Below are positions 3,052-60,464 of a stretch of 64,000 nucleotides of DNA, one piece after another; positions within the stretch are counted from its first letter, which is position 1, and every line of letters begins with the position of its first letter. The notes beneath the pieces were generated by a model, which worked only from the letters and a program-made list of their open reading frames with translations, searched no databases and was not told where the DNA came from. A program made the translations under genes and the position numbers. This stretch comes from Diogma glabrata (lineage: Eukaryota; Arthropoda; Insecta; Diptera; Cylindrotomidae), in contig OY856186.1 in the NCBI GenBank assembly GCA_963693315.1, positions 371,468,850-371,532,849 on the forward strand, read 5' to 3'.

Positions 3052-5112
3052 ATGACTCAAGAAGAAATTTATTGCGAAAACTTTTTCGAAAAAACTGTTA
3101 GACGAAATAGTGATGGGCGTTTCATTGGTAAATTACCGTTTAACGACAGGGTTAATAGCTTGGGTGATTCGAGAATAATGGCATTAAAACGATTTAAAAA
3201 TCTGGAACAAAAATTAGAAAAGGATATTGCACTGAAAAATCAATATGATAAATTCATGAAAGAGTACGAAAACTTAAAACATATGGTACTATCTGACAAC
3301 AAGGTACTTGAAAATGAATACTTCTTGCCACATCATGCTATTATTAAACCAGAAAGTAGCACGACTAAAGTACGCGTAGTTTTTGACGCGTCTGCGAAGA
3401 CATCAACAAACTTGTCATTAAATGATACATTGATGATTGGTCCATTAGTACAACGAGACCTATTTAACACTGTTCTTCGTTTTAGAAGATATTTATACGT
3501 TTTTACATCAGACGTGGAAAAGATGTATAGAATGATATTAGTAGAAAAAGAAGATTCAAAGTTTCAAAAGATTTTTTGGCGTGAAAACAAAAACGAACCA
3601 ATAAAAGAGTATGAGTTAAAGACTATTACATATGGTACGTCTTCAGCTTCATACTTGGCGACCAAGGTAATTCAAAAATTAGCAGAAAGTGTAAAAGAAA
3701 CCAACCCAATAGTCTATGAAAAAATAAAAAATGATTTTTATATGGATGATTTGCTAAGTGGAACAAATGATTTAGAATTTGGAAAAGAAATTATTAGACA
3801 ACTTAGAGAAATATTTCAGCAAGGAAAAATGAAATTACGAAAATGGACATCAAATAGAACAGAATTACTAGAAAATATTCCAGCCAATGATGTAGAAGAC
3901 ATTTCAACAAAAATAAATAATACCATTAAAACATTAGGCTTACTCTGGAAACCTAAAACTGATCAATTTTCGTTTAAAATTGGAATTTTTGAAAAAACAA
4001 CCATGGTAACAAAAAGAACAGTATTAGCAAGTATTGCAAAAATCTTCAATTCATTGGGACTGTTAGCTCCAGTAATAATTGTTGCTAAAGTAATTATGCA
4101 AAAACTGTGGATGGCTAAAATTGAATGGGATGAACAATTACCGGAAGATATATTAAGTGTATGGATAGAGTTTCAGAATAGCTTAGATAGAGCAAGTAGT
4201 ATTAAATTGGATAGATGTTTCATAACTGAAAAACAAAAAAGCCTAGAATTACATGGGTTTGCCGATGCATCTAGCTCAGCTTATGGCGCATGTGTAGATG
4301 CAAGATCAATAGGACAAGACGATAATATTTTAATAACACTCCTATGTAGCAAGTCAAGAGTTGCTCCATTAAAGGTAATAACAATACCAAAATTAGAGCT
4401 AAATGCAGCGTTATTATTGTCGAAATTAGTTAAAAAGGTAATTGAGTCATTAAACGTTACGTGTCGAATAGTATTGTGGTCAGATTCTAGTATAGTATTA
4501 GCTTGGATAAAACAAAATTCATATAATTTAAAAACATATGTGGCTAATAGAGTAAGTGAAATCCAAGATCTTACAAAAGGAATGGAATGGAGGCATGTTA
4601 GCACTAAGAGTAATCCGGCGGATTTAGTTTCTAGAGGATTAATGCCTAAAGAAATTCAAAACTGTATGTTATGGTGGAGTGGCCCAGAATTCCTTAAAAA
4701 ATCTGAAACAACATGGCCGTCAAAATTTATAAACCTAAATTTAGAAAACTTGCCTGAAGTAAAGAAAGTTAATGAAACTTTAGTCAGTACAAATTTGGAA
4801 TATATAATAGATATAGCAAAATATGATTCATTAAATAAATTGAAAAGAATAGCAGCGTATGTTTGCCGAGCAATAAAAAGTTTTAAAACAAAGGGGATGT
4901 TACATCGTCAAACTGGCATACTAACATCAAGTGAATTAAAGGATGGTTCAAATTTAGTGATTAAAATAGTTCAACACAAGGAGTTTTTAAAGGATATAGA
5001 TACTTTAAAAAGAAAGGGAAGGCTACCAAACGATAGTAAATTGATAAGTTTAAGTCCTTTTGTAGATATTGATGGAATTTTGCGAGTTGGAGGAAGACTA
5101 ATGAGACATTAG
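3052..5112 (+). CDS. pol: BEL/Pao pol: reverse transcriptase and RNase H (partial pol)
   Basis: An open stretch of 686 codons. The start ATG is simply the first after the degenerate protease; the true upstream boundary is lost. The leading segment (CENFFEKTVRR, GRFIGKLPF) is the conserved pre-RT region of BEL/Pao. RT follows with VVFDASAKTS near residue 109, FTSDVEKMYRMI near 155 and the catalytic YMDD near 230. RNase H begins near residue 403 (GFADASSSAYGACV). The frame ends at 5112, just where the linker to integrase should continue. A near-repeat of about 20 bp there (GAGACATTAG at 5103 and again at 5123) looks like a local duplication that broke the ORF. It would synthesise element cDNA in the capsid. 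Confidence 0.9.
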   Translation: MTQEEIYCENFFEKTVRRNSDGRFIGKLPFNDRVNSLGDSRIMALKRFKNLEQKLEKDIALKNQYDKFMKEYENLKHMVLSDNKVLENEYFLPHHAIIKPESSTTKVRVVFDASAKTSTNLSLNDTLMIGPLVQRDLFNTVLRFRRYLYVFTSDVEKMYRMILVEKEDSKFQKIFWRENKNEPIKEYELKTITYGTSSASYLATKVIQKLAESVKETNPIVYEKIKNDFYMDDLLSGTNDLEFGKEIIRQLREIFQQGKMKLRKWTSNRTELLENIPANDVEDISTKINNTIKTLGLLWKPKTDQFSFKIGIFEKTTMVTKRTVLASIAKIFNSLGLLAPVIIVAKVIMQKLWMAKIEWDEQLPEDILSVWIEFQNSLDRASSIKLDRCFITEKQKSLELHGFADASSSAYGACVDARSIGQDDNILITLLCSKSRVAPLKVITIPKLELNAALLLSKLVKKVIESLNVTCRIVLWSDSSIVLAWIKQNSYNLKTYVANRVSEIQDLTKGMEWRHVSTKSNPADLVSRGLMPKEIQNCMLWWSGPEFLKKSETTWPSKFINLNLENLPEVKKVNETLVSTNLEYIIDIAKYDSLNKLKRIAAYVCRAIKSFKTKGMLHRQTGILTSSELKDGSNLVIKIVQHKEFLKDIDTLKRKGRLPNDSKLISLSPFVDIDGILRVGGRLMRH

Positions 5113-8320: not shown

Positions 8321-9633
8321 TAGTACATCTTTTATATTTTTATAAATTAACTAAATTAATTAATTCATATTTATATACGTTTTTCATAAACATAATTATT
8401 AAATTTAAAAAAAAAAAACATGAAATCATGCTTTTTCAATATACAAAATGGAGATTGTGAATACGATTCCGTTTTTTGATCAAAACCTAAATTATTGAAA
8501 TTCGATACTTACAATATTTATTACACCGCTTTTGATTAATACTTCTTAATAATGATGTTTTTTAAGTAATTTATAGTATTTTTTAGATTAAATGTTGATA
8601 TTTATACAAAGAATTATTTTTTCTTAAACGGAAGACCTTATTTACGGCGTCCAAATCGGATTTATGAAAATTGAAAATGGAATGGAAGAAAAGAAACAAT
8701 ATTATAATGAAGTTGGTTGCTTAATTTTAATTTTTATACCAACTGTTTCTTTTTATATCATTTTTCATACACTGTAAAAAGATTAAAGCAGGTTTTACAT
8801 GAGGATATAGAGACTATCCGATTGTGTTTTCATACTTCTATGTCGGATTGTATAGTCGCCAGTCGCTACAATTTACATTTTTTAACTGATATTTGATACT
8901 CTTCAACTGATTTCTTTCTTACCATATTATACTCAATTTAATGGCTAACGTTGTGGATTTCATCTCAATTATTGAGCTTTAATTAATTTTCGATGTCAAA
9001 GCGCACCAATACATGTATACAGCACTGGAAGGCAGTGATGTTGAGTTTAAGATGTAATTAATTATTGTCGGCCAGTAATATAATCTTTTGTAAATAAGGT
9101 ACACGGATAATCTGGAATAAAATTCTGCCCAACAAGTACATATATATTAAAATTCATACTTATACACTGTTAAAAATATATACACAAAATTGAAAAAAAC
9201 AAACATGGAGGTTTAATTTGAATTTATTTAAAGAATTGTAGTTCGATAAATTTAAAGTTAAACAAAGCAATTAATAATAAAATTTGTAGTGTAATAACGA
9301 AACATTATGTTCGATTTGATTTTGTTTGTATAATTTTATAATTTATATCTAATAATAAATTGGAATTTTCGTGTATCTAAATATTAAATTTTTATGCATG
9401 ACAGTTGTGTATTATAATAACTGTGACAAGAAAAATGCAAAAAAAAGATTTTCTAATATATAATAGTTGTTATTGCTTATATTAATTAAATTTATGTTAA
9501 ACTTTAATATGTATAAATTTAGTTTTTTTAGTACATATAATTTAGACATGAAGCAAAATCTGTATAATGAAAGAAATCAAACATCCCGCTCGGCATGAAC
9601 ATCGGAAAGATATCTTAATGCTATCTAAAAAAT
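8321..9633. other. No gene recognised
   Basis: AT-rich sequence with no ORF worth calling and no clear terminal repeats. It ends at the boundary of the first MULE-like element. Confidence 0.5.
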
Positions 9634-9644
9634 GGTTCTATGAT

Positions 9645-9890
9645 AAAATATCACACGAAAAAATCCCACACGAAAAATTATCACGTCGAAAATATCACAG
9701 CGAAAAAATCACACTATACGAAAATATCACATCACGAAAATATCACATCTCGAAAATATCACATCCTAAAATCACACGCGAAAAAATATCACATCCTAAA
9801 ATCACACGCGAGAAAATATCACATCCTAAAATCACACGCGTAAAAATATCACATCCTAAAATCACACGCGAAAAAATATTATGCAAAAAA
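9645..9890 (+). repeat. Subterminal tandem array, left end of MULE copy 1
   Basis: Units of about 28-30 bp: AAAATATCACATCCTAAAAT plus CACACGCG, four close copies from about 9760, preceded by diverged half-units (AAAATATCACATCACG, AAAAATCACACTATACG). Translating this array gives long ORFs that are repeat artefacts. The inverse array lies at 10400-10478 and 11930-12170. Confidence 0.85.
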
Positions 9891-10478
9891 TTTTATTGAA
9901 AAACACAGAAATATTACAAGTTTTGAGATTGCAGAAATGCTTACCTTTGATCTCTAATTTTGGAGATGTCACTACGGAAAAGAAAGAATAGCAAATATTT
10001 TTACAAATTACAGTCGTGATCAAAAAATCGAAATGTTGAGAATTGCTCATGTAGGGTACATATAAGAAATCAAAATAATAAAAATTCATAATTGTGAAAA
10101 AATGCAATCAATTTCTGTTACCGTCCGCTATCTTGCAAACTATAAATCTTTTCGATCTAAAATTTCAGATGAGTATTGCTTAAATCATTTGGGATCCAAA
10201 ATAAATTAAGTGGGAGTCAGTTGTTTGATAGGGCTATGACATGAAAACGTTTTTACTAAGTCAAATACGGTTTCATATGAAAGATTGTGTCTCAAATCTC
10301 AATGGTCGTTACAATTGTTGGCACAGAATTCGTTAAAATTTATATATAATATAACCGACGTTGTGTTTTTTTTTACAATAAAATGTTTTCCAGGATATGT
10401 TTTCGTGTGTGATTTTAGGATGTGATATATTTACGCCTGTGATTTTAGGATGCGCTATTTTTTCTCGTGTGATTTTAA

Positions 10479-11921: not shown

Positions 11922-12749
11922 TTGTTATTTTAGGATGTGATATTTTTCCAGTGTGATTTTAGGATGTCATATTTTTACGCGTGTGATTTTAGGATGTGAT
12001 ATTTTTTCGCTTGTGATTTTAGGATGTGATATTTTCTCGCGTGTGATTTTAGGATGTGATATTTTCGTGATGTGATATTTTTGTGATGTGATATTTTCGT
12101 ATAGTGTGATTTTCTCGTTGTGATATTTTCGACGTGATATTATTTCGTGTGGGATTTTTTCGTGTGATATTTTATCGCGACACCATCAATTAGAACATAA
12201 ACTTTTTATTTACTCTTAATGTGGAACACTACTTTAACCTTACTATTTATTATTTACTTTCTAGAATTTAACCGCAAAAGATATACGAAAGATATACTCA
12301 TCACTATACTAATCCTGCAAAAATGGAATACTGCGGACGATGCCAGCATAGAAGCAGTAATCAAAAACAGCGCCAGACCACTGCAGTAATATTAAAACAT
12401 TCTTTTATATGTTATTTATATTTATCATTTGCTTTGTGCGAACTCACAAATATTTGACAGATTTTGGTGAAAGTGAAATTTGTAAAAACAAAATTTTGAC
12501 ATTAGGTGAAAATTTTAATTTTTATGTTTGCTGTTAATAAATATATATAATATATATACTTATATAAATATTACTTTAGCAATTAAAAAAACTTCTGTAA
12601 TAAATTGATGTTAATTCAATGAATTATTTGTGATATTACATCACTCCGATGGAAATAATCCCATCATTTTTATAATAATAAGACTGAATCTAACAAAATA
12701 TGGTGTGCAATTTATGAAATTTTTTTGCTATCCACAAAATTGTCGATCG

Positions 12750-12828
12750 ATCTAGTTTCGAACCGATAAGAACTTTTTATTACACTTTAAAAAAGTATAT
12801 CATTCTCATCAGGGCTAGCCGACTAGAT
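12750..12828 (-). ncRNA. Hammerhead ribozyme motif, satellite unit 1
   Basis: On the minus strand, in order: stem III strand AUCUAGU, cleavage-site C (12821), palindromic stem I segment GGCUAGCC, core CUGAUGA, long stem II, core GAA, and stem III partner ACUAGAU (7 of 7 pairs). Stem II pairs GAAU-GAUA with UAUC-G-GUUC (one bulged G, one U-G) and continues as ACUUUUU/AAAAAGU. All invariant core bases are present. Cleavage would be expected after the GUC, between 12821 and 12820. Activity is inferred, not shown. Confidence 0.85.
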
Positions 12829-13202
12829 ACACTACCAAAAAAATTTTTCGCTTTATAAACCTAAAATAGGTCACTACTCTAGCGAAGTATAAGAAACCAA
12901 AAAACTTTCATAAACATATGTTTATTAGATTCAGGTTTAGTCAATTTGTTTCTCTAGTTGATCACTATTGTTGTTATACTCTAACCAAGTTAGAATTGGA
13001 TAACAAACTTGTATCGGTGAGAAGAAGATGACTATCTTCACTTGTGTGTATCGACACATTATCTACAATTAATTCAATGAATTATTTGTGATATTACATC
13101 ACTCCGATGGAAATAATCCCATCATGAATAATAAGACTGAATCTAACAAAATATGGTGTGCAATTTATGAAATTTTTTTGCTATCCACAAAATTGTCGAT
13201 CG

Positions 13203-13281
13203 ATCTAGTTTCGAACCGATAAGAACTTTTTATTACACTTTAAAAAAGTATATCATTCTCATCAGGGCTAGCCGACTAGAT
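13203..13281 (-). ncRNA. Hammerhead ribozyme motif, satellite unit 2
   Basis: Same sequence over the motif as unit 1 on the minus strand; cleavage-site C at 13274, exactly 453 nt from that of unit 1. Core CUGAUGA and GAA intact, stem III 7 of 7 pairs. Confidence 0.85.
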
Positions 13282-13655
13282 ACACTACCAAAAAAATTTT
13301 TCGCTATATAAACCTAAAATAGCTCACTACTCTAGCGAAGTATAAGAAACCAAAAAACTTTCATAAACATATGTTTATTAGATTCAGGTTTAGTCAATTT
13401 GTTTCTCTAGTTGATCACTATTGTTGTTATACTCTAACCAAGTTAGAATTGGATAACAAACTTGTATCGGTGAGAAGAAGATGACTATCTTCACTTGTGT
13501 CTATCGACACATTATCTACAATTAATTCAATGAATTATTTGTGATATTACATCACTCCGATGGAAATAATCCCATCATGAATAATAAGACTGAATCTAAC
13601 AAAATATGGTGTGCAATTTATGAAATTTTTTTGCTATCCACAAAATTGTCGATCG

Positions 13656-13734
13656 ATCTAGTTTCGAACCGATAAGAACTTTTTATTACAGTTTAAAAAA
13701 GTATATCATTCTCATCAGGGCTAGCCGACTTGAT
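13656..13734 (-). ncRNA. Hammerhead ribozyme motif, satellite unit 3 (stem III mismatch)
   Basis: Minus-strand copy with intact CUGAUGA and GAA core. The stem III strand reads AUCAAGU against ACUAGAU, which costs one central pair, and the stem II loop has one base change. Cleavage-site C at 13727, 453 nt from unit 2. It is likely weaker if active. Confidence 0.75.
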
Positions 13735-13848
13735 ACACTACCAAAAAAATTTTCGCTATATAAACCTAAAATAGGTCACTACTCTAGCGAAGTATAAGAA
13801 ACCAAAAAACTTTCATAAACACATGTTTATTAGATTCAGGTGTAGTGT

Positions 13849-13927
13849 ATCTAGTCGGCTAGCCCTGATGAGAATGATATACTTTTTTAAAGTGTAATAA
13901 AAAGTTCTTATCGGTTCGAAACTAGAT
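13849..13927 (+). ncRNA. Hammerhead ribozyme motif, inverted unit 1
   Basis: Plus-strand copy: AUCUAGU, C at 13856, GGCUAGCC, CUGAUGA, the 8-bp bulged stem II with 7-bp extension, GAA, ACUAGAU. All core bases are intact. It lies immediately after the head-to-head junction near 13840. Confidence 0.85.
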
Positions 13928-14301
13928 CGATCGACAATTTTGTGGATAGCAAAAAAATTTCATAAATTGCACACCATATTTTGTTAGATTCAGTCTTATT
14001 ATTCATGATGGGATTATTTCCATCGGAGTGATGTAATATCACAAATAATTCATTGAATTAATTGTAGATAATGTGTCGATACACACAAGTGAAGATAGTC
14101 ATCTTCTTCTAACCGATACAAGTTTGTTATCCAATTCTAACTTGGTTAGAGTATAACAACAATAGTGATCAACTAGAGAAACAAATTGACTAAACCTGAA
14201 TCTAATAAACATATGTTTATGAAAGTTTTTTGGTTTCTTATACTTCGCTAGAGTAGTGACCTATTTTAGGTTTATATAGCGAAAAATTTTTTTGGTAGTG
14301 T

Positions 14302-14380
14302 ATCTAGTCGGCTAGCCCTGATGAGAATGATATACTTTTTTAAAGTGTAATAAAAAGTTCTTATCGGTTCGAAACTAGAT
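14302..14380 (+). ncRNA. Hammerhead ribozyme motif, inverted unit 2
   Basis: Identical over the motif to the copy at 13849; cleavage-site C at 14309, 453 nt downstream of the previous site, so cleavage at both would release a 453-nt monomer. Confidence 0.85.
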
Positions 14381-14754
14381 CGATCGACAATTTTGTGGAT
14401 AGCAAAAAAATTTCATAAATTGCACACCATATATTGTTAGATTCAGTCTTATTATTCATGATGGGATTATTTCCATCGGAGTGATGTAATATCACAAATA
14501 ATTCATTGAATTAATTGTAGATAATGTGTCGATACACACAAGTGAAGATAGTCATCTTCTTCTCACCGATACAAGTTTGTTATCCAATTCTAACTTGGTT
14601 AGAGTATAACAACAATAGTGATCAACTAGAGAAACAAATTGACTAAACCTGAATCTAATAAACATATGTTTATGAAAGTTTTTTGGTTTCTTATACTTCG
14701 CTAGAGTAGTGACCTATTTTAGGTTTATATAGCGAAAATTTTTTTTAGTAGTGT

Positions 14755-14833
14755 ATCTAGTCGGCTAGCCCTGATGAGAATGATATACTTTTTTAAAGTG
14801 TAATAAAAAGTTCTTATCGGTTCGAAGCTAGAT
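14755..14833 (+). ncRNA. Hammerhead ribozyme motif, inverted unit 3 (A15.1 changed)
   Basis: Same layout, cleavage-site C at 14762, but the base after GAA is G rather than A (GAAG-CUAGAU), leaving a G-U instead of A-U pair at the base of stem III. It is probably impaired. The unit is truncated shortly after, at about 14907. Confidence 0.75.
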
Positions 14834-15344
14834 CGATCGACAATTTTGTGGATAGCAAAAAAATTTCATAAATTGCACCCCATATTTTGTTAGATTCAGT
14901 CTTATTAAATTGATGTTCCTTATGAAATTATTTGTTATGCCTACTGTCACAATTTGATGATGCTAAAAAGCTACATCAAATTTTGACGTTTCGTTATGGT
15001 GAATATAAATTCCAAAAGACAAAATTTTGACAGTTAATATTTGTCATCTGTCATTATTTCGTCAGTTCGCACACAGCAAAAGTATAAGAATTAATTTATT
15101 TTTGAATTTAATAAAAACAAAATTAAGTATTGTGTTAAGTAATGATTTTAATTATTTAAAAATAACCTAAAATCTAAACTTCAAAATCTAATAACTTTTT
15201 GATATCTCTAATATGCTATCATTCGGAGCTCAGAAAAATGCTATATATCTGATATCTTTTCGAAGAGATCTAAAAGATGTCAGCAGGTGGGGCATTAGAA
15301 GGTTTTCTGATATCTTTATGTTATCTTTGGTTTTATGATAAAAT

Positions 15345-15590
15345 ATCACACGAAAAAATCACACACGAAAGAATATCACGTCGAAAATATCACAGCGAAA
15401 AAATCACACTCCACGAAAATATCACATAACGAAAATATAACATTTCGAAAATATCACATCCTAAAATTACACGCGAAAAAATATCACATCCTAAAATCAC
15501 ACGCGCGAAAATATCATATTCAAAAATCACATGCGAAAAAATATCACATCCTAAAATCACACCCAAAAAAATATCACGTAAAAAATTTTA
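15345..15590 (+). repeat. Subterminal tandem array, left end of MULE copy 2
   Basis: Diverged units of ATATCACATCCTAAAATCAC plus ACGCGAAAAA, about 28-30 bp each, with shorter TATCACNNCGAAAA half-units toward the tip. Matches the left array of copy 1. Confidence 0.85.
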
Positions 15591-16170
15591 TTGTAAAAAA
15601 ACACAATGTCCGTATATAAAATAAAACTTTTTGAAGTACTCTAACTAAGCTACCAATCTTTCATTTGATATCGTATTTGACTTAGTGAAAAACGTTTTCA
15701 ACAACTTCACGTTATAGTCCTATCAACTCAACATTAAGTTAAAACTCTTGGATATGTTCACCACAGGAATACATCTGTTGGTGTTAGTCATTGGCGATGC
15801 AATAAATATCGCAGTCTTCGTTTAAAGTCGATTCTACCAATGAAAATCAGATTGTACGAGAGTCGCTTGATCACAACCATAGCGCAAAAAACTATGAGGG
15901 CCAAGATCATAAGCTAGTTAATGAAATGAAGCAAGCAATAGCCAATCCTGGAGCTTCAACTCATCTCACAATTGCAATTGGAATGGCTCAAACTTCGGAA
16001 GGTGTGCCCTACCCAAAAAAAAATTCACTAACTTGACGCTTATAGTACGCCAAAAGTAAAACAAATGGAAATTCTCTAGCCTATCCTAGAGATATTCATA
16101 TTTTAATATTTGAAAAATATAATATGGTATTATAAGATTCAGGAATTGATAATAATTCTTTTTGCTCATA

Positions 16171-16640
16171 CAACTTCGACAGATTTGTAACTAATGATTG
16201 TTGGTTTGCAGATGGAACATTTAAAGTGGTTCCAGAAATATTTTTATTTTTTTTAATGATATGGTTGCGTTGCATAGCCATGTATATTAGCATTATTACC
16301 AAATAAGACATGATACTTACTGTAAAATGTTGATGGCAGTTTTAGAATTAATACCTAATGCAAATCCTAGAATAATTATTACAGATTTAGAGATTGTAAT
16401 GTGTACCATCGATATGAAATTTTTTGTATTCTCAGGATTTGAAGATGTCGCTACAACATGATTATTATATGCAGCAGTGTGTTCAAGCATTGGAATCCAG
16501 TGAAATAAAGAATAGAATATTAGCAGAAAGGATAACAAATATTTTTACAAATTTCCATCCTGAGAAAGAAAATCAAAATGTTAAGAAGAAATTGCTCATA
16601 AATGGTATACGAAATCAAAACAATAAAAATACATAATTGT
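16171..16640 (+). pseudogene. MULE transposase remnants
   Basis: Three collinear plus-strand scraps. At 16171-16249 a frame reads RFVTNDCWFADGTFKVVPEI; the pattern W-x-ADGTFK-x-x-P around the first catalytic Asp is characteristic of MULE transposases. At about 16335-16400 a frame reads ALELIPNANPRIIITDLE, matching the region of the second Asp (TDLE/TDFE). At 16424-16636 a 70-codon frame begins after a splice-acceptor-like TTTTTTGTATTCTCAG and would be the C-terminal part. Large parts are missing, so it cannot encode an active enzyme. This piece sets the superfamily of both array-ended elements. Confidence 0.7.
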
Positions 16641-17339
16641 AAAAATACGCAATTAATTTATTTTTAGTTTTACTTTTATAAACCGCTTGCTGCGTGTCCG
16701 TCTGTTACCGTCCCACATGTTAACTACAAATCTTTTCGATCTAAAATTTGAGATAAATATTGATTAAATAATTTGAGATCCAAAATAAATAAAATAAGAT
16801 TAATTTGTTTGATAGGGTAATGACCTGAAGTCGTTGAAAACCTTTTTACTAAAGATTACTCTTCATCAGTCTTTTTCATCTTTTTTTCTAGTCAAAACAG
16901 AACGAGAAACCATGATTAATTTTTTAAAGAGAGAGTAAGACGAATATCACAATTTTTCATGGAAAAAATATTTTATAGGATTGGAATTGTGACATTTCAC
17001 CATCATCCAACATAGACTGTATAGTAATTTTAAATATATTTTTTCAGTGTAAAAGTCGTCTTTTCCCATAAAAAAGTCTTGCTCTATAGACTTTTTTTTA
17101 TAGTAGAACACTTTTTTATAGTATATCACTTTTTTTAAAAAAAAAAAAGTCATGGAAAATAAAAAAAGACATAGAATAAATAAAAAGTCTTCATCTTTTT
17201 TCCTTTCGTACTTATATGATTTTCATATCTTCTATTTCACAAAATACGGTATCATATGAAAGATTGCTATTTCAGAATTCTTTACAAAAATTTATATTTT
17301 ATATACGGACAATGTGTTTTTTACAATAAAATTTTTTTA

Positions 17340-17550
17340 CATGATATTTTTTGGGGTGTGATTTTTAGATGTGATATTTTATCGCGTGTGATTTTTGTAT
17401 GTGATATTTTTTCGTGTGTTATTTTAGGGTGTGATATTTTCGTGATGTGATATTTTAGTGATGTGATATTTTCGTATAGTGTGATTTTTTCGCTGTGATA
17501 TTTTCGACGTGATATTTTTTCGTGTGTGATTTTTTCGCGTGATATTTTAT
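17340..17550 (-). repeat. Subterminal tandem array, right end of MULE copy 2
   Basis: Inverted version of the left array: GTGTGATTTTTNGATGTGATATTTTNTCGC-like units ending in CGTGATATTTTATCAGGACACC at the element tip. Confidence 0.8.
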
Positions 17551-17786
17551 CAGGACACCGTTATCTTTGTGATAAATGTTTTGGATGTCAGATCTAAAAA
17601 CGGTTACCCTTAAGAGCTCATTATGATAGCTTTTTGCCGAACGGGATGGACGACAGGTATTATGATTTATGTATTAGAAATGCTTCGATATTTTCAAGGA
17701 AATTAGAGCTCTATTTAAAAATATTATTATTAAATTTTTCAATATCTTTTTAGAATTGTAGAAAAGAAAAATACTTGGTTAATAAG

Positions 17787-17968
17787 TGTAATGTATTCGT
17801 TACAATATGGCAACCCCTTTTATTATACCATTTGAATTAACAGATATGTTCATACTTTTCACATTCTACAAATGTCACTCTTGAAAATACAACTTGTAAT
17901 AACAGAATGAAAATATACGTTTGTGAAAATTATAATACGTGTTTTTATTACATTAATCAAACATAGCA
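17787..17968 (+). repeat. 5' LTR of Ty3/gypsy element
   Basis: 182 bp, TGTAATGTATTCG to CATAGCA, canonical TG...CA ends. Must contain the promoter; I did not identify a clear TATA box. Confidence 0.95.
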
Positions 17969-17970
17969 AT

Positions 17971-22239: not shown

Positions 22240-22421
22240 TGTAATGTATTCGTTACAATATGGCAACCCCTTTTATTATACCATTTGAATTAACAGATAT
22301 GTTCATACTTTTCACATTCTACAAATGTCACTCTTGAAAATACAACTTGTAATAACAGAATGAAAATATACGTTTGTGAAAATTATAATACGTGTTTTTA
22401 TTACATTAATCAAACATAGCA
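22240..22421 (+). repeat. 3' LTR of Ty3/gypsy element
   Basis: Identical to 17787-17968 by eye; contains ATTATAATACG and other AT-rich stretches that may serve transcription end signals. Confidence 0.95.
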
Positions 22422-22426
22422 ATAAG

Positions 22427-42317: not shown

Positions 42318-42640
42318 AACTTTTTAAATCTAAATAAAAAATATTTAATATAATCTTTGATATTATAAATCAAAATTAATTGTAACAATCAAAATAAAAT
42401 GTTAAAATTATATATATAGCTTATTCATACTTTTTAATCAATTTCAAAATTTTATATATATGTCAAATAATCCTTCAAAAATTAGATTGTAAATTAGTAA
42501 ATTTTCTTTATTTGCTCTCGCATTATATGCACTTGCAAATATTTATTTAAATAATTCTATTATCATTGTAAAACAATTGTTTTATACTTGTATTATACAA
42601 TAATAAAAAAAAAAATAAAATAATGAAAAAAAAAAAAAAA
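41286..42640 (+). mobile_element. 5'-truncated non-LTR retrotransposon (CR1/Jockey-like)
   Basis: Flanked by an 11-bp duplication ATATACAGGAT (41275-41285 and 42641-42651) and ending in an A-rich tail (42606-42640). Only the 3' half of the RT gene is present at the start, the usual result of incomplete reverse transcription. Its target was the left tip of the palindromic MITE that continues to 43438. Confidence 0.92.
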
Positions 42641-42642
42641 AT

Positions 42643-43438
42643 ATACAGGATAAGTTTTTTAAAAAATGCCAGGCTTTTATCTCGAGAACCATGCTAGATG
42701 GGACGAAATAACCCAAGGTGATATTTGTTAAGCGTCGAGGGGGACGTCCAATGGTAATATTGAATGACCTTGAAACTCATAAGTATTGGAGATATATGCC
42801 AAAATAGGTTTTTTTTAAATTAGAACCTATACATTTAAGGTTTTTTTTTAATTAATTAAATCAAACTACACACTTTTTGCTTACAAATTTTTTTTGTAAA
42901 GTGTGCGATTTTGTAGATATGATGAAAATTGATTTGCACTAAAGCAAACGTGTCTTCGCTAAGTTCTTCAGTAAAAAAATAAAATTTCGATAAATTAAAA
43001 AAAAAAACAATGAAAATCATTCATTAATTTGAATATTATTGCATCGTGGTCTACTGCGTGAAATTGATTTTCGTTTTTTTTTTTGATTTATTGAAATTTT
43101 ATTTTTTTACTGAAGAACTTAGCGAAGACACATTTGCTGTAGTGCAAATCAATTTTCATCATATCTACAAAATCGTACACTTAACAAAAAAAATTTGTAA
43201 GCAAAAAGTGTGTAGTTTGATTTAATTAAATAAAAAAAAAACATTAAATGTATAGGTTCTAATTTTAAAAAAACCTATTTTGGCATATATCTCCAATACT
43301 TATGAGTTTCAAGGTCATTCAATATTACTATTGGACGTCCCCCTCGACGCTTAACGTATATCACCTTGGGTTATTTTGTCCCATCTAGCATGGTTCTCGA
43401 GATAAAAGCCTGGCATTTTTTAAAAACCTCACCCTGTA
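42643..43438. mobile_element. Palindromic MITE with TACAGGGTGAG-type ends
   Basis: Left end TACAGGATAAGTTTTTTAAA and right end, inverted, TACAGGGTGAGGTTTTTAAA. The two arms (about 42643-43000 and 43085-43438) are near-complete inverted copies of each other around a short AT-rich centre, including AGCATGGTTCTCGAGATAAA and its complement. The left 8 bases also exist at 41278-41285, duplicated by the non-LTR insertion. No coding capacity. Confidence 0.88.
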
Positions 43439-44829
43439 TAGGTGAAGATTTGAAATATTTCGTAAATAATTTTTTTTATATTTGTAGATAGATAGAAGGC
43501 TGTTGTAAATATGTGTATATAGCTCATTGAATTTTTGCATATAATTTCGGGGTTTTTAAATTTTTTTTAGAATGAATAACTATCATCAAAAACATAGCGT
43601 TATGTTATGGTATTTCAAGGAATATTAGAAGTTATACAATTTTTATTTCTTGAGTTTTTAACATCATTGCTATTACGTTGTGTCAAATACGGAGTTTTGT
43701 TCAAGGTGTTGACACTGATAAACTTAAAAATACAATGCCTGATGTTTTCAATGATAATTAGCTGACTCAACAATGTTTTATATAAAATCAAACAATTTAA
43801 ATTGAATTTTAAAATAGTATATTAAGAAACTAGTTTCATAATCGACGATTTTATCGCACGCAATCTGTTTAGAAAACGACCCGCGCAGCGGGGAGTTTTC
43901 TAAAGGATAAGTGCGATAAAACGTCTTATGAAACGAGTTTTTTATACTATTTTTTCTATTTTGCATTTTTTGTCTTGAAATTTAAAAAAAATTTTTATGT
44001 TTTAATGTTTTAAAGAAAATTTCTAAAAATTTCAATTCAAAATAGTAAGCTCTGCGTTTCATCATATTTCTATATATTTTTTTGTTGCAAAACTAGCTTT
44101 CATAAAATGTGTATTTTATTAAAATATAGTCAATTTGATATTTTGTTATTATTACTTAATTTTTTTAATTAAGTAAAATATTTAACACTAATTTAGATTA
44201 TTTTTTAATAATAAGATTAATTAATAAGAATAATTTTATTTATATAATTATTCGTTTTAACTCTCACTGACGTTTGTTAGACCAATGTGACCAACCTTGA
44301 AAAACTAAACTTTGCGTATCTTAATGAAGGCCATTTCGATACGCATTTGGGTATCGAAATGACTTTATTTTAGACGCAAAATAGAAAAACAAATTTTTCG
44401 TTAGTACGCAGACTATACTTCTCTATTGGGTATTTTGTTTTCCTCATAGAAAAGTTTTTATAACTAACCTTTTTCTCAAACGATGCTAAATTTCATTAAA
44501 TTGTAAATTCTTGCGTATTTCGAAATAAGTTAAGATAATAGAGGAGTACGTTATAATATTGAATATATTTTATATATATGAATTCATTTTCTTCACCGTT
44601 CATATTTATTATCGAAAAAAAATCTTGTTTTCATTGGTGGTATATATATCTAACGTTTATTTAAATATTGCTATAAATTTGCAATGAAGAGGTTATTCAT
44701 CCTATTAGAAATAGGCGTTTTTAGTACTATTGGAATAACTTCTATATTTTTTTTTTGTTGACGGTTTTAGTTACGTCACTCGTGTTAGTATACATGTTTT
44801 ACATTAGATTATATAAATAAAATTTTTTT
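43439..44829. other. No gene; two hairpin MITE-like segments
   Basis: AT-rich. 43810-43955 folds on itself (AAAATAGTATATTAAGAAAC near one end; its imperfect complement near 43912-43955; a short GC core ACCCGCGCAGCGGGGAG). 44313-44379 has a perfect hairpin CATTTCGATAC-gcatttg-GGTATCGAAATG with weaker outer pairing TTTGCGT/ACGCAAA. Both are probably MITE remnants. Confidence 0.5.
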
Positions 44830-55814: not shown

Positions 55815-56770
55815 ACAGTTTTATAGACAATTAATTACAATTAATCTCAATTTTCTTTTGATTTAATAAATGGATTTATCTCGCGCCATTGCGAAACATA
55901 CACAACATGAAAATTCTTTTTGGTTATTTTAATTAAATTAATCTTAATTTGGTTTTGATTTAATAAATAAATTTATCTAGCGCCATTGCGTACATACACG
56001 ACATAAAAATTCTTTTTGGTTATTTTAATTAAATTAATCTTAATTTGGTTTTGATTTAATAAATAAATTTATCTAGCGCCATTGCGTACATACACGACAT
56101 AATAGTACATTATGATGCTAGGACGTAAAGCTAAAGATTTTGGACGTATGTGGAGTTTGCAAATCGAGGCGCTAGCCAAGATTTGCACCCACATTAAGTC
56201 CAAAATAGCTTACGTCCGAGCATCATATACTATTTTTTATTCGCCGCAAGCAAAATAGTTTAAGAAAAGTTGTTTATTCTGAATTAAAATTATAAATTTT
56301 CATAAATTTTAAAATAAAAATATGTGGAACAAGTAACCTTTGACAAAATATTTATTATTTTTTCCAAATTATTGTGTAGCTATGACAACAAATGATAACA
56401 ACTATTTTAATTGGATAATAAAATTTTGAATTTAAGGGTTGCTTTGATTTTTCATAGAATTTAAACAAATACAAATGATTTTTACTTTTTTGGACGTAGC
56501 TATGACAACAAAATAAATAGTTGAAAAGTGATACTTTAAAGCCGCAAATCACAGTAATAAAGTAACACTTTAATATGTAGGCGAATAAAAAAATTCTTTT
56601 TGGTTATTTTAATTAAATTAATCTTAATTTGGTTTTGATTTAATAAATAAATTTATCTAGCGCCATTGCGTACACACACAACATAAAAATTCTTTTTGGT
56701 TATTTTAATTAAATTAAACTTAATTTTCTTTTGATTTAATAAATAAATTTAACTAGCGCCATTATGAATA
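55815..56770 (+). repeat. About 96-bp tandem repeat, five copies, interrupted once
   Basis: Unit: AAAATTCTTTTTGGTTATTT, TAATTAAATTAATCTTAATT, TGGTTTTGATTTAATAAATA, AATTTATCTAGCGCCATTGC and GTACATACACGACAT. Copies end near 55913, 56008, 56103, 56690 and 56765. Between the third and fourth lies a 480-bp insertion (next entry). Confidence 0.88.
56101..56587. mobile_element. Hairpin-bearing insertion inside the 96-bp repeat
   Basis: Interrupts the tandem array. Its first 140 bp fold back: GATGCTAGGACGTAAAGCTA against TAGCTTACGTCCGAGCATCA, with GATTTTGGAC/GTCCAAAAT and GCAAATC/GATTTGC further in. The rest is AT-rich. Full terminal repeats are not obvious. Confidence 0.6.
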
Positions 56771-59755: not shown

Positions 59756-59800
59756 TAACGCAGAATGAGATAGAAGCTGCACAATAAAGTTCAATAAAGT

Positions 59801-60464
59801 TCAAGCCACAATCCACCTAATCGTAATTTACTACAAGTCATGTAATGATAAACTAGAGGTCTTATCTTTTGTCATTATATCTGATCATTTAATGCATAAC
59901 ACAGTTGCAGTTCATAAATACCAGGAAAGGTGTATTGAATTCATTGAAAAACAGCAAGAAATATATCCAAGTATCAAAAAATTTTTATATTTTACTGATG
60001 GTTCAGCAGCTCAATATAAAAATAAGAAGAATTTCATAAATCTCTGCAAACATATTGATGATTTTAAGATACCTGCAGAATGGCATTTCTTTGCAACTGC
60101 TCACGGAAAGGGTCCATCCGATGGAATTGGAGGAACACTTAAAAGAGAAGCCTGGAGAGCTTCGCTTAAAGGAGAAAAAATATCAACAGCGAGGGAATTA
60201 TTTGAATGGGCGGAAATTTGGTCGAAAAAAACCAACCACGTTATGAAGTTTTCATATGTGTCTTCAGGAGATATCGAATTACAGAAGCAATTTCTTTCAA
60301 TGCGGTTTTCGGACATTAAAACCATAAGTGGAACTCAAGGATTCCACTGTTTTTTACCGGATAACACTACACCCGATAAAATAATTGCCAAAATGTTTTC
60401 TTTTTCTGATAATCATAAATATTTCAATTTAAAGGCAAAAGAAATATATAAATTAATTTTTTAA
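59801..60464 (+). CDS. Transposon protein, catalytic-like C-terminal part
   Basis: The frame is open from about 59801, upstream of the ATG at 59892, and reads QATIHLIVIYYKSCNDKL, VIISDHLMHNTVAVHKYQ, then FLYFTDGSAAQYKNKKNF, EWHFFATAHGKGPSDGIGG, LKREAWRASLKG and a C-terminal GTQGFHCFLPDN. The blocks SDHL, TDGSAAQYKN and HGKGPSDGIGG are conserved-looking, with acidic residues spaced as in a DDE/RNase H-like nuclease. I recall similar TDGxxxQYKN...HGKGxxDGIGG proteins in many animals, usually unannotated. It is the best candidate for this element's transposase, but I cannot name the superfamily. Confidence 0.7.

Follow-up and report, generated by a model that had tools for sequence, protein, structure and literature searches.

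Architecture of the insertion

Positions 12611 to 14907 of the window, by which we mean the whole 64,000-nucleotide stretch of DNA analysed, hold a single insertion that consists of two head-to-head arms within a 12-bp target duplication. TRF resolved two tandem stretches with a period of 453 and 98% matches (12611–13846 and 13842–14907). A motif with the core letters of the hammerhead ribozyme in type III order (U16.1, C17, CUGAUGA, GAA and A15.1) occurs six times, starting at 13849, 14302 and 14755 on the plus strand and at 13734, 13281 and 12828 on the minus strand. The predicted cut falls at GUC|GGC. The features are as follows:

11928–15606, no strand: older host element with the insertion inside; inverted ends at 11928–12194 and 15309–15606
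12601–12612, no strand: left-hand target-site duplication copy, TAAATTGATGTT; its last 2 bases overlap the array
12611–13841, minus strand: left arm, comprising 2.7 units of 453 bp; its hammerhead strand points outward (leftward), and its outer end lies at unit position 205
12750–12828, minus strand: hammerhead motif, core letters complete; predicted cleavage site 12821
13203–13281, minus strand: hammerhead motif, core letters complete; predicted cleavage site 13274
13656–13734, minus strand: hammerhead motif in which stem III has a mismatch, a private change; predicted cleavage site 13727
13836–13848, no strand: inner junction, arms head to head
13842–14907, plus strand: right arm, comprising 2.4 units of 453 bp; its hammerhead strand points outward (rightward), and its outer end lies at unit position 145
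13849–13927, plus strand: hammerhead motif, core letters complete; predicted cleavage after 13856
14302–14380, plus strand: hammerhead motif, core letters complete; predicted cleavage after 14309
14755–14833, plus strand: hammerhead motif with A15.1 changed to G, a private change
14906–14917, no strand: right-hand target-site duplication copy; its first 2 bases overlap the array

The preliminary description of this DNA had reported six 453-bp units with a hammerhead core in type III order, and both the motif scan and TRF confirm them. Its 453-nt spacing applies inside each arm, but the two opposite orientations were absent from that account; the complete core and 7-bp stem III that it described are found in four units, but not in those starting at 13734 and 14755, which carry the changes listed above.

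To set the chance level for the duplication, 200,000 pairs of points were drawn at random from the window, and 2 of these pairs shared a run of at least 12 bp. A search for an empty site of the window insertion found none. No open reading frame of at least 120 aa overlaps 12611–14907, so the insertion contains no such frame with a telomerase-like reverse transcriptase and a GIY-YIG domain, and ARAGORN detected no tRNA-type head in the window. The ends of the host element carry 30-bp subterminal repeats; judging by motifs in open frames near 16,136–16,461, it is perhaps a MULE-type DNA transposon.

Copies across the genome

The insertion is one of very many dispersed copies, as the 31-mer of the motif has 8,641 matches (at most 3 mismatches) in a genome of 1.33 Gb. 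All 24 two-armed loci seen are divergent, and among the first 100 motif places listed on contig C1, all of them exact, neighbours were divergent in 22 cases and convergent in none; therefore, the template was evidently single-stranded and of hammerhead polarity. By extrapolation from their density in the first 48 Mb of C1, motif loci should number more than a thousand genome-wide. Target duplications of 11–15 bp, longer than the 4 bp that retrozymes exceed, flank 18 of the 20 two-armed loci in which both outer ends are visible, and the same 18 have one outer end at unit position 205–221 and the other at 100–151. When left and right flanks of these loci were mismatched as a control, the shared runs measured 3–9 bp for 303 of the 306 combinations and 11 bp for the other 3. 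The target half-sites of the 18 loci form a dyad, with T at −8 (27/36), A at −3 (27/36) and A at −2 (25/36).

Some loci depart from this layout. Two-armed misfits are L133, with ends at 145 and about 5 and no duplication found, and L169, with ends at 153 and 404 and no duplication above 7 bp; outer ends outside the usual zones occur in L163 (358) and L131 (354), and seven loci are one-armed (L151, L162, L164, L168, L132, L134 and L147). The longest arm seen, in L163, exceeds nine units and runs beyond the stretch examined. An apparent third end zone at 32–61 proved to be an alignment break in all three loci concerned (L197–L199), where the element continues to 133–141.

In L152, L155 and L160, locus-private variants are present in every full unit of both arms, and in L153 they are present in five of the six full units, the site being deleted in the sixth. 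In loci with at least four full units, a minority letter is never shared by two or more units at the same position. Because private variants are shared across both arms, each such insertion appears to have been copied from one 453-nt monomer. Most simply, this monomer of hammerhead polarity would have been a circular RNA copied repeatedly from both cut ends. At position 226 of the window copy, the family letter is found in only one of the four full units and another letter in three, which counts against the model that we prefer below. The inner junctions, considered as possible marks of the cleavage site, are scattered without concentration there, and their phase-1 entries are partly alignment artefacts (L160, L161 and W).

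Conservation and predicted folding of the hammerhead motif

The core is intact in 152 of the 155 full-length motif copies from 30 loci. The preliminary description had named frequent core mutations elsewhere in the genome as a refuting outcome, and this count speaks in favour of the motif. The order of the elements is that of type III and not the type I of metazoan retrozymes. “Stem I” is the 8-nt palindrome GGCUAGCC, which within one motif can form at most 2 bp with a 4-nt loop and is thus too small for the three helices of a type III hammerhead; a typical stem I, as described in PMC7936874, has 6 bp and a loop of 6–8 nt. The covariance check suggested earlier spoke against the motif: neither a search of the window at the Rfam gathering threshold nor an E-value search of the region returned a hammerhead match. 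A scan of both strands of the unit for other hammerhead permutations, which required three stems of 3 bp or more and tolerated one core mismatch, detected none; no homologues of the unit were found in phages, and an exact 23-mer had no match in viral or GTDB contigs.

Depending on the settings, the descriptor was matched by 0–5 of 2000 dinucleotide shuffles of the window, and a tighter version by 1 of 40,000 shuffles of the unit. A looser scan, covering types I and III, also gave matches in 5 of 200 shuffled versions of the 64-kb window, and the motif alone is therefore not overwhelming.

The predicted free fold (−21.0 kcal/mol) is 9.8 kcal/mol better than the hammerhead fold (−11.2 kcal/mol). 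It is a strongly favoured rod that hides the core, and the preference persists in longer contexts. Stem II can be drawn as proposed previously, but its predicted probability is near zero. For comparison, the 99 type III motifs parsed from viral contigs have stem II probabilities of at least 0.187 and fold gaps of at most 7.7, each below that of the 453-bp unit. A double hammerhead formed through stem I was predicted to be better than two single hammerheads, yet at −39.6 it is not the best dimer (−56.0). The fold strength of the unit (z of −5.8 to −7.6) weighs little, because a z of −5 is likewise attained in 4 of the 80 background windows. The earlier claim of a self-cleaving ribozyme therefore keeps its core letters and type III order, but on these predictions efficient self-cleavage is in doubt, and the hammerhead probably needs help to fold, either from a protein or from a second unit that pairs with it through the GGCUAGCC palindrome.

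A second family, 19% diverged and with units of 442–449 nt, shares the layout of the first (L195), and the start zones are alike in both. Its fixed changes spare all 33 columns of the core, stem I and stem III but affect 56 of 374 columns outside the motif (p = 0.014, based on six second-family units). This count replaced a p of 0.0016, obtained with one second-family copy chosen for its unbroken motif. A hand count in the aligned sequences shows that this family retains 8 of the 9 base pairs of the rod and 7 of the 8 in stem II, and pairing therefore does not distinguish the rod from the hammerhead.

Mobilisation and relation to known systems

We consider it probable that the element is a non-autonomous, non-coding retrozyme moved by Penelope-like machinery. 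Its tandem non-coding units, a few hundred bp long with one hammerhead each, resemble those of retrozymes, a kinship already suggested in the preliminary description, and unit-length processing of a tandem transcript, also suggested there, remains the natural reading. An arm transcript would contain several 453-nt units, from which the hammerhead motifs, placed one unit apart, might release 453-nt monomers that could be ligated into circles. A Penelope-like reverse transcriptase-endonuclease would cut the two strands of an AT-rich dyad with an offset of about 12 nt, so that the 3' ends overhang. To judge from the layout, both 3' ends would prime on the same kind of RNA, near unit positions 207 and 143, and the RNA would be copied repeatedly, round after round, from each primed end. 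The two cDNAs would then be joined head to head, yielding divergent concatemers between target duplications of 11–15 bp. More tentatively, and as a plausible rather than a probable elaboration, reverse transcription of a circular non-coding RNA might begin at both 3' ends of a dimeric double cut of the Penelope type and proceed as a rolling circle, with divergent concatemers as the normal outcome; the palindromic stem I might act as an obligatory unit pair, in which each centre comprises the substrate strand of one unit and the catalytic strand of the next, or might function only with the Penelope-like protein bound.

Two alternatives place the origin of the arrays at the DNA level. An ordinary tandem satellite, homogenised through unequal exchange, would explain tandem 453-bp units with 98% identity, and “satellite” was the term used in the preliminary description. 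That term does not suit a single short insertion that has inverted arms and a target duplication: instead of long homogenised arrays at few sites, we found short dispersed loci, most with their own target duplication, and the lack of minority letters in two or more units is also contrary to it. Because of the target duplications, the satellite is refuted as the main account and has very little probability left. A foldback DNA transposon or the insertion of a DNA circle, with the inverted arms arising through transposase or repair, agrees with inverted arms and a short flanking duplication, and the window copy does lie inside a foldback-like DNA element. However, in each of the 18 regular loci the two outer ends fall at distinct points of the unit, which leaves no equal terminal inverted repeats; this, together with arms of more than nine units, the single template polarity and the similar start zones in two families, makes such an origin improbable.

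The remaining alternatives concern the motif itself. That it is a chance look-alike within an ordinary repeat is suggested by the shuffles matched in the loose scan, all the more as many windows were presumably screened, and by the missing Rfam match. We nevertheless regard this as unlikely in view of the rarity of the tighter descriptor in unit shuffles, the coincidence of motif strand and template strand, and the retention of the motif in the diverged second family. A weightier possibility, though still a doubtful one, is that the element jumps as proposed while its hammerhead is an inactive relic, the functional form being the rod, which contains the helix CUGAUGAGAAU/AGUUCUUAUCGG, and the template being uncleaved tandem transcripts. 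The strongly favoured rod points in this direction, as do the inner ends, which do not lie at the cleavage site, and the use of uncleaved RNA by the Penelope-like element PAc in vitro (PMC11167929); the pairs kept in the second family do not discriminate. On the other side, private variants common to all units of a locus call for a monomer stage, the core, stem I and stem III columns lack fixed changes in the second family, and in the rod helix of the L169 copy changes affect 0 of 11 positions in the 5' strand, which is the core, versus 4 of 12 in the 3' strand.

The retrozyme reading raises the question of the mobilising enzyme. According to PMC7761336, animal retrozymes have no conserved motif pointing to a mobilising autonomous element, and Penelope-like elements or Terminons are the likely candidates. 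In one genome, the insertions described here form a detailed record of polarity, two start zones, a symmetric target, duplications and a monomer bottleneck, and this makes the open question of how animal retrozymes move directly testable. The divergent orientation of GIY-YIG genes in the same genome (17 neighbours divergent, none convergent) matches that of the element copies and is part of the same record. An Rfam search revealed no hammerhead at 20 GIY-YIG loci (stretches of 2–3.2 kb around the domain) or in L194, the one complete Penelope-like unit read, which has neither a hammerhead core nor similarity to the 453-bp unit.

As described in PMC7229834 and PMC7761336, metazoan non-LTR retrozymes have units of 150–450 bp with type I hammerheads. 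The present element shares with them non-coding tandem units with a hammerhead, low GC content, RNA-mediated spread and target duplications above 4 bp, but differs in its type III order, its 8-nt palindromic stem I and its divergent two-armed concatemers with two start zones. Plant LTR retrozymes (PMC7761336) likewise have type III hammerheads, and they have small circular RNA intermediates of the kind we propose here; however, they are described with an LTR, PBS and PPT layout and 4-bp target duplications, in contrast to the 11–15 bp found here. The type III order is also known in insect genomes, from the termite and toad HDV-like RNAs and dipteran genomes treated in PMC7936874; those hammerheads have long helices I and II with a loop-loop pseudoknot, whereas helix I is minimal here, and the termite genomic motifs are described as isolated rather than in tandem units. 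The Dolichopoda satellite pDo500 (PMC2837043), also an insect repeat, likewise carries a hammerhead, for which a double-hammerhead form has been proposed. Unlike the 453-bp unit, its motif has a potentially active hammerhead fold in most populations and species, and it is described without a divergent-arm insertion. In the part of the literature covered, as judged by titles, we found no description of the 453-bp repeat or of divergent retrozyme insertions.

The closest parallel in layout is PAc of Anolis (PMC11167929), which likewise has a hammerhead, two internal start sites, cutting and extension of both strands, a preference for AT-rich DNA and tandem copies. PAc encodes its own enzyme, unlike the non-coding 453-bp element, and in our reading the C3/G8 of its core is located upstream of the cut, which is the type I order. 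The present layout agrees with a Penelope-type double cut, but its two ends use different zones, whereas the PAc start sites are reported to show no strand difference. The PAc hammerhead is described as cleaving only with protein; in vitro, PAc does not require hammerhead cleavage (PMC11167929). Our data suggest that the protein that mobilises the element may assist in the processing of weakly folding hammerheads such as that of the 453-bp unit.

The double array in the window

According to our analysis, the double array in the window is one insertion and not a satellite. Two arrays of period 453 (12611–13846 and 13842–14907; TRF, window) are mutually inverted, and a target duplication overlaps the double array by two bases on each side:

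12601–12612, target duplication, TAAATTGATGTT
12828, minus strand, hammerhead motif start
13281, minus strand, hammerhead motif start
13734, minus strand, hammerhead motif start
13849, plus strand, hammerhead motif start
14302, plus strand, hammerhead motif start
14755, plus strand, hammerhead motif start
14906–14917, target duplication, TAAATTGATGTT

The preliminary description had reported hammerheads embedded in a satellite; the hammerhead core stands, with all core letters intact in four of the six motifs, and the satellite label is replaced by the single flanked insertion. That description was a real finding that undersold its surroundings. The unit at 13734(−) has lost one stem III pair, and A15.1 is altered at 14755(+). 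Each variant site among the window units is a single unit differing from the rest; at unit position 226 (within the 453-nt unit), the odd unit has the family letter G and the other three have C. The insertion is nested within an older foldback-like DNA element.

Insertion anatomy and abundance in the genome

The comparison covered 20 further loci (three extended) and ten more from a genome search with the unit. Two-armed loci number 24 including the window, and their arms are divergent in all 24. Both outer ends are visible in 20; in 18 of these, a duplication of 11–15 bp (exactly 12 bp in nine) was found, and one outer end lies at unit position 205–221 and the other at 100–151 (L152–L156, L158, L159, L160, L161, L165, L166, L167, L170, the window copy W, L123, L126, L129, and L150). 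When mismatched flanks, taken from the left and right of different loci, were put through the same search, 303 of the 306 pairings reached 3–9 bp and the other three 11 bp. The positions of the inner junctions, where the arms meet, are scattered.

Two loci do not fit. L133 has two arms with outer ends at 145 and ~5, and no duplication was found in its flanks; its right arm stops ~5 nt beyond the predicted cleavage site. In L169 the second arm halts at 404, adjoining sequence of a second, diverged family. Among the four two-armed loci with one hidden end, the visible end falls in a zone in L157 (207) and L149 (132) and outside both zones in L163 (358) and L131 (354). One-armed loci (L151, L162, L164, L168, L132, L134, and L147, apparently L158 in its second haplotype) have duplications of at most 5–8 bp, apart from 13 bp in L134. 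In L158, 218 bp of foreign sequence (3341–3558) separates the arms, perhaps another RNA copied during insertion.

In the genome (1.328 Gb, 1788 contigs), the unit has at least 212 matches in the best 40 of 423 candidate places scored, with 94–100% identity among the matches listed. With up to three mismatches allowed, a 31-mer spanning the cleavage site matched 4393 + 4248 times, and its reversed control not once. In the first 100 places of the listing (exact matches throughout, on contig C1 at 0.1–47.6 Mb, in 60 clusters), motif neighbours up to 2 kb apart were divergent in 22 cases and convergent in none.

The hammerhead motif and its second family

The order of cleavage site, CUGAUGA, and GAA bears out the type III layout described previously. 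Depending on settings, 0–5 of 2000 window shuffles matched a descriptor for this layout; when the unit was shuffled 40,000 times, one shuffle did. Compared with the hammerhead family, the motif agrees in its core letters, but not in model score, stem I size, or predicted fold. The covariance check proposed earlier came out negative: no Rfam hammerhead model reported the motif in searches of the window and the region. The 79-mer folds freely at −21.0 kcal/mol versus −11.2 with the hammerhead enforced (RNAfold), and stem II probability is near zero in it and in contexts of 461, 618, and 1068 nt. As a control, a type III pattern scan of viral contigs gave at least 131 matches at at least 120 loci; among those listed, 29 had no parse, three were weak-stemmed, and 99 had stems of at least 3, 3, and 4 bp. 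In these 99, which are compact, pattern-selected, and no fair sample of animal hammerheads, stem II probability was at least 0.187 (median 0.98), and the gap between free and hammerhead folds was at most 7.7 kcal/mol, versus 9.8 here. Newt, axolotl, and Penelope-like hammerheads are described as dependent on dimers or protein (PMC6155905; PMC7229834; PMC11167929).

All 12 core letters checked are kept in 152 of 155 full-length motif copies (33 stretches, 30 loci; one copy is the second-family copy of L169), so the frequent core mutations elsewhere in the genome that would have spoken against the preliminary description were not seen. The motif is identical to the window's in 135 copies. The copies are mostly young, and what their conservation shows is therefore that the source was intact recently.

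The second family was reached through the diverged copy of L169; its units measure 442–449 nt and have 81% of positions in common with the first. A column was counted as a fixed change if five or more of the six full second-family units (L195, L196) depart from the window unit. Such changes affect 0 of 33 columns in the core, C17, stem I, and stem III versus 56 of the 374 columns that lie outside the motif (p = 0.014); including stem II, 2 of 49 versus the same 56 of 374 (p = 0.044). The rest of the motif has 7 of 30. Counting all differing cells in these six units, the values are 2/198 in the 33 columns and 411/2244 outside the motif. By hand count, three of ten listed second-family motifs carry core or stem changes. 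The helix of the rod, an alternative predicted fold that hides the core, competes with the hammerhead and is partly preserved in this family; therefore, the RNA may switch from one of these folds to the other. L195 has divergent arms and a 12-bp duplication. Across the matches to this family, partial unit rows end at 198–209 (18 rows) and 133–144 (10 rows; hand count). About 20 further rows end at 32–61; this zone was rejected as genuine, as the three such rows read all continue to 133–141. A one-armed copy of this second family, L198, has an apparent direct repeat ATATTGCTCTACTA at both ends, by eye.

Template, target site, and other features of the window

A single polarity is seen: in both arms the 3′ side of the hammerhead strand faces outward. 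Units differ by a mean of 0.50 letters within a locus versus 3.51 between loci (83 full units, 21 loci). Variants that are private (absent from the other loci read, a small fraction of all copies) fill every full unit of both arms in L152 (5), L155 (5), and L160 (9), and both full units, in one arm, in L158 (2). In L153, 350C and 357G occur in five of six full units, the sixth having a deletion there. At loci with at least four full units, a minority letter never occurs in two or more units at any position. Owing to this uniformity and these private variants, a unit mutation must pass through one monomer before insertion. The simplest account would be a circle copied repeatedly; a homogeneous linear multimer derived from a single monomer would be the alternative.

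Half-sites of the 18 loci, read toward the duplication, have T at −8 (27/36), A at −3 (27/36), and A at −2 (25/36), a dyad as would be expected of a dimeric endonuclease cutting both strands. A GIY-YIG search of the same genome scored the best 150 of 4129 candidates, all 150 above the cut-off; among these, neighbours within 12 kb were 17 divergent, 0 convergent, 6 ++, and 3 −−, Penelope-like identity being checked for L194 only. L194 is a tandem-array unit with RVT_1 and GIY-YIG domains; the unit examined has no hammerhead core and no similarity with the 453-nt unit. The array (G000, C598) is Penelope-like, with a period of ~2869 bp and long open frames of up to 840 aa.

According to PMC11167929, PAc, the Penelope-like protein of Anolis, cuts both strands and extends them, prefers AT-rich DNA, activates its own hammerhead, and has two internal start sites, the stretch between them being the known “tail”; in vitro it does not require hammerhead cleavage. 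Unlike in the two-zone element here, its start site is the same for both strands. The likeness to PAc, one of behavior, is close.

Taken together, the element is probably retrozyme-like in its working (a non-coding, hammerhead-bearing mobile element with RNA-mediated spread, here with putative cleavage and a putative RNA circle) and of the Penelope type in its insertion, judging by layout. Our confidence is reduced by the misfits L133 and L169 and because the unbiased conservation test was weaker than the first.

Other features of the window are as follows:

9609–9910, 11928–12194, 15309–15606, and 17242–17559, nested inverted ends of 30-bp subterminal repeats
around 16136–16461, open frames that we take to be reminiscent of MULE transposase
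59769–60464, 231-aa open frame with no match in a Pfam search and 111 relatives in many arthropod genomes and metagenome contigs, the named ones being mostly arthropods, as would suit a probable arthropod source
55831–56102 and 56589–56763, two arrays of a 96-bp tandem repeat
42537–43547, 1-kb palindrome with 84% self-inverted identity
17787–22423, Gypsy-type element whose open frame is 1382 aa long

The two 184-bp terminal repeats of the Gypsy-type element (17787–17970 and 22240–22423) are identical, and it is therefore a recent insertion.
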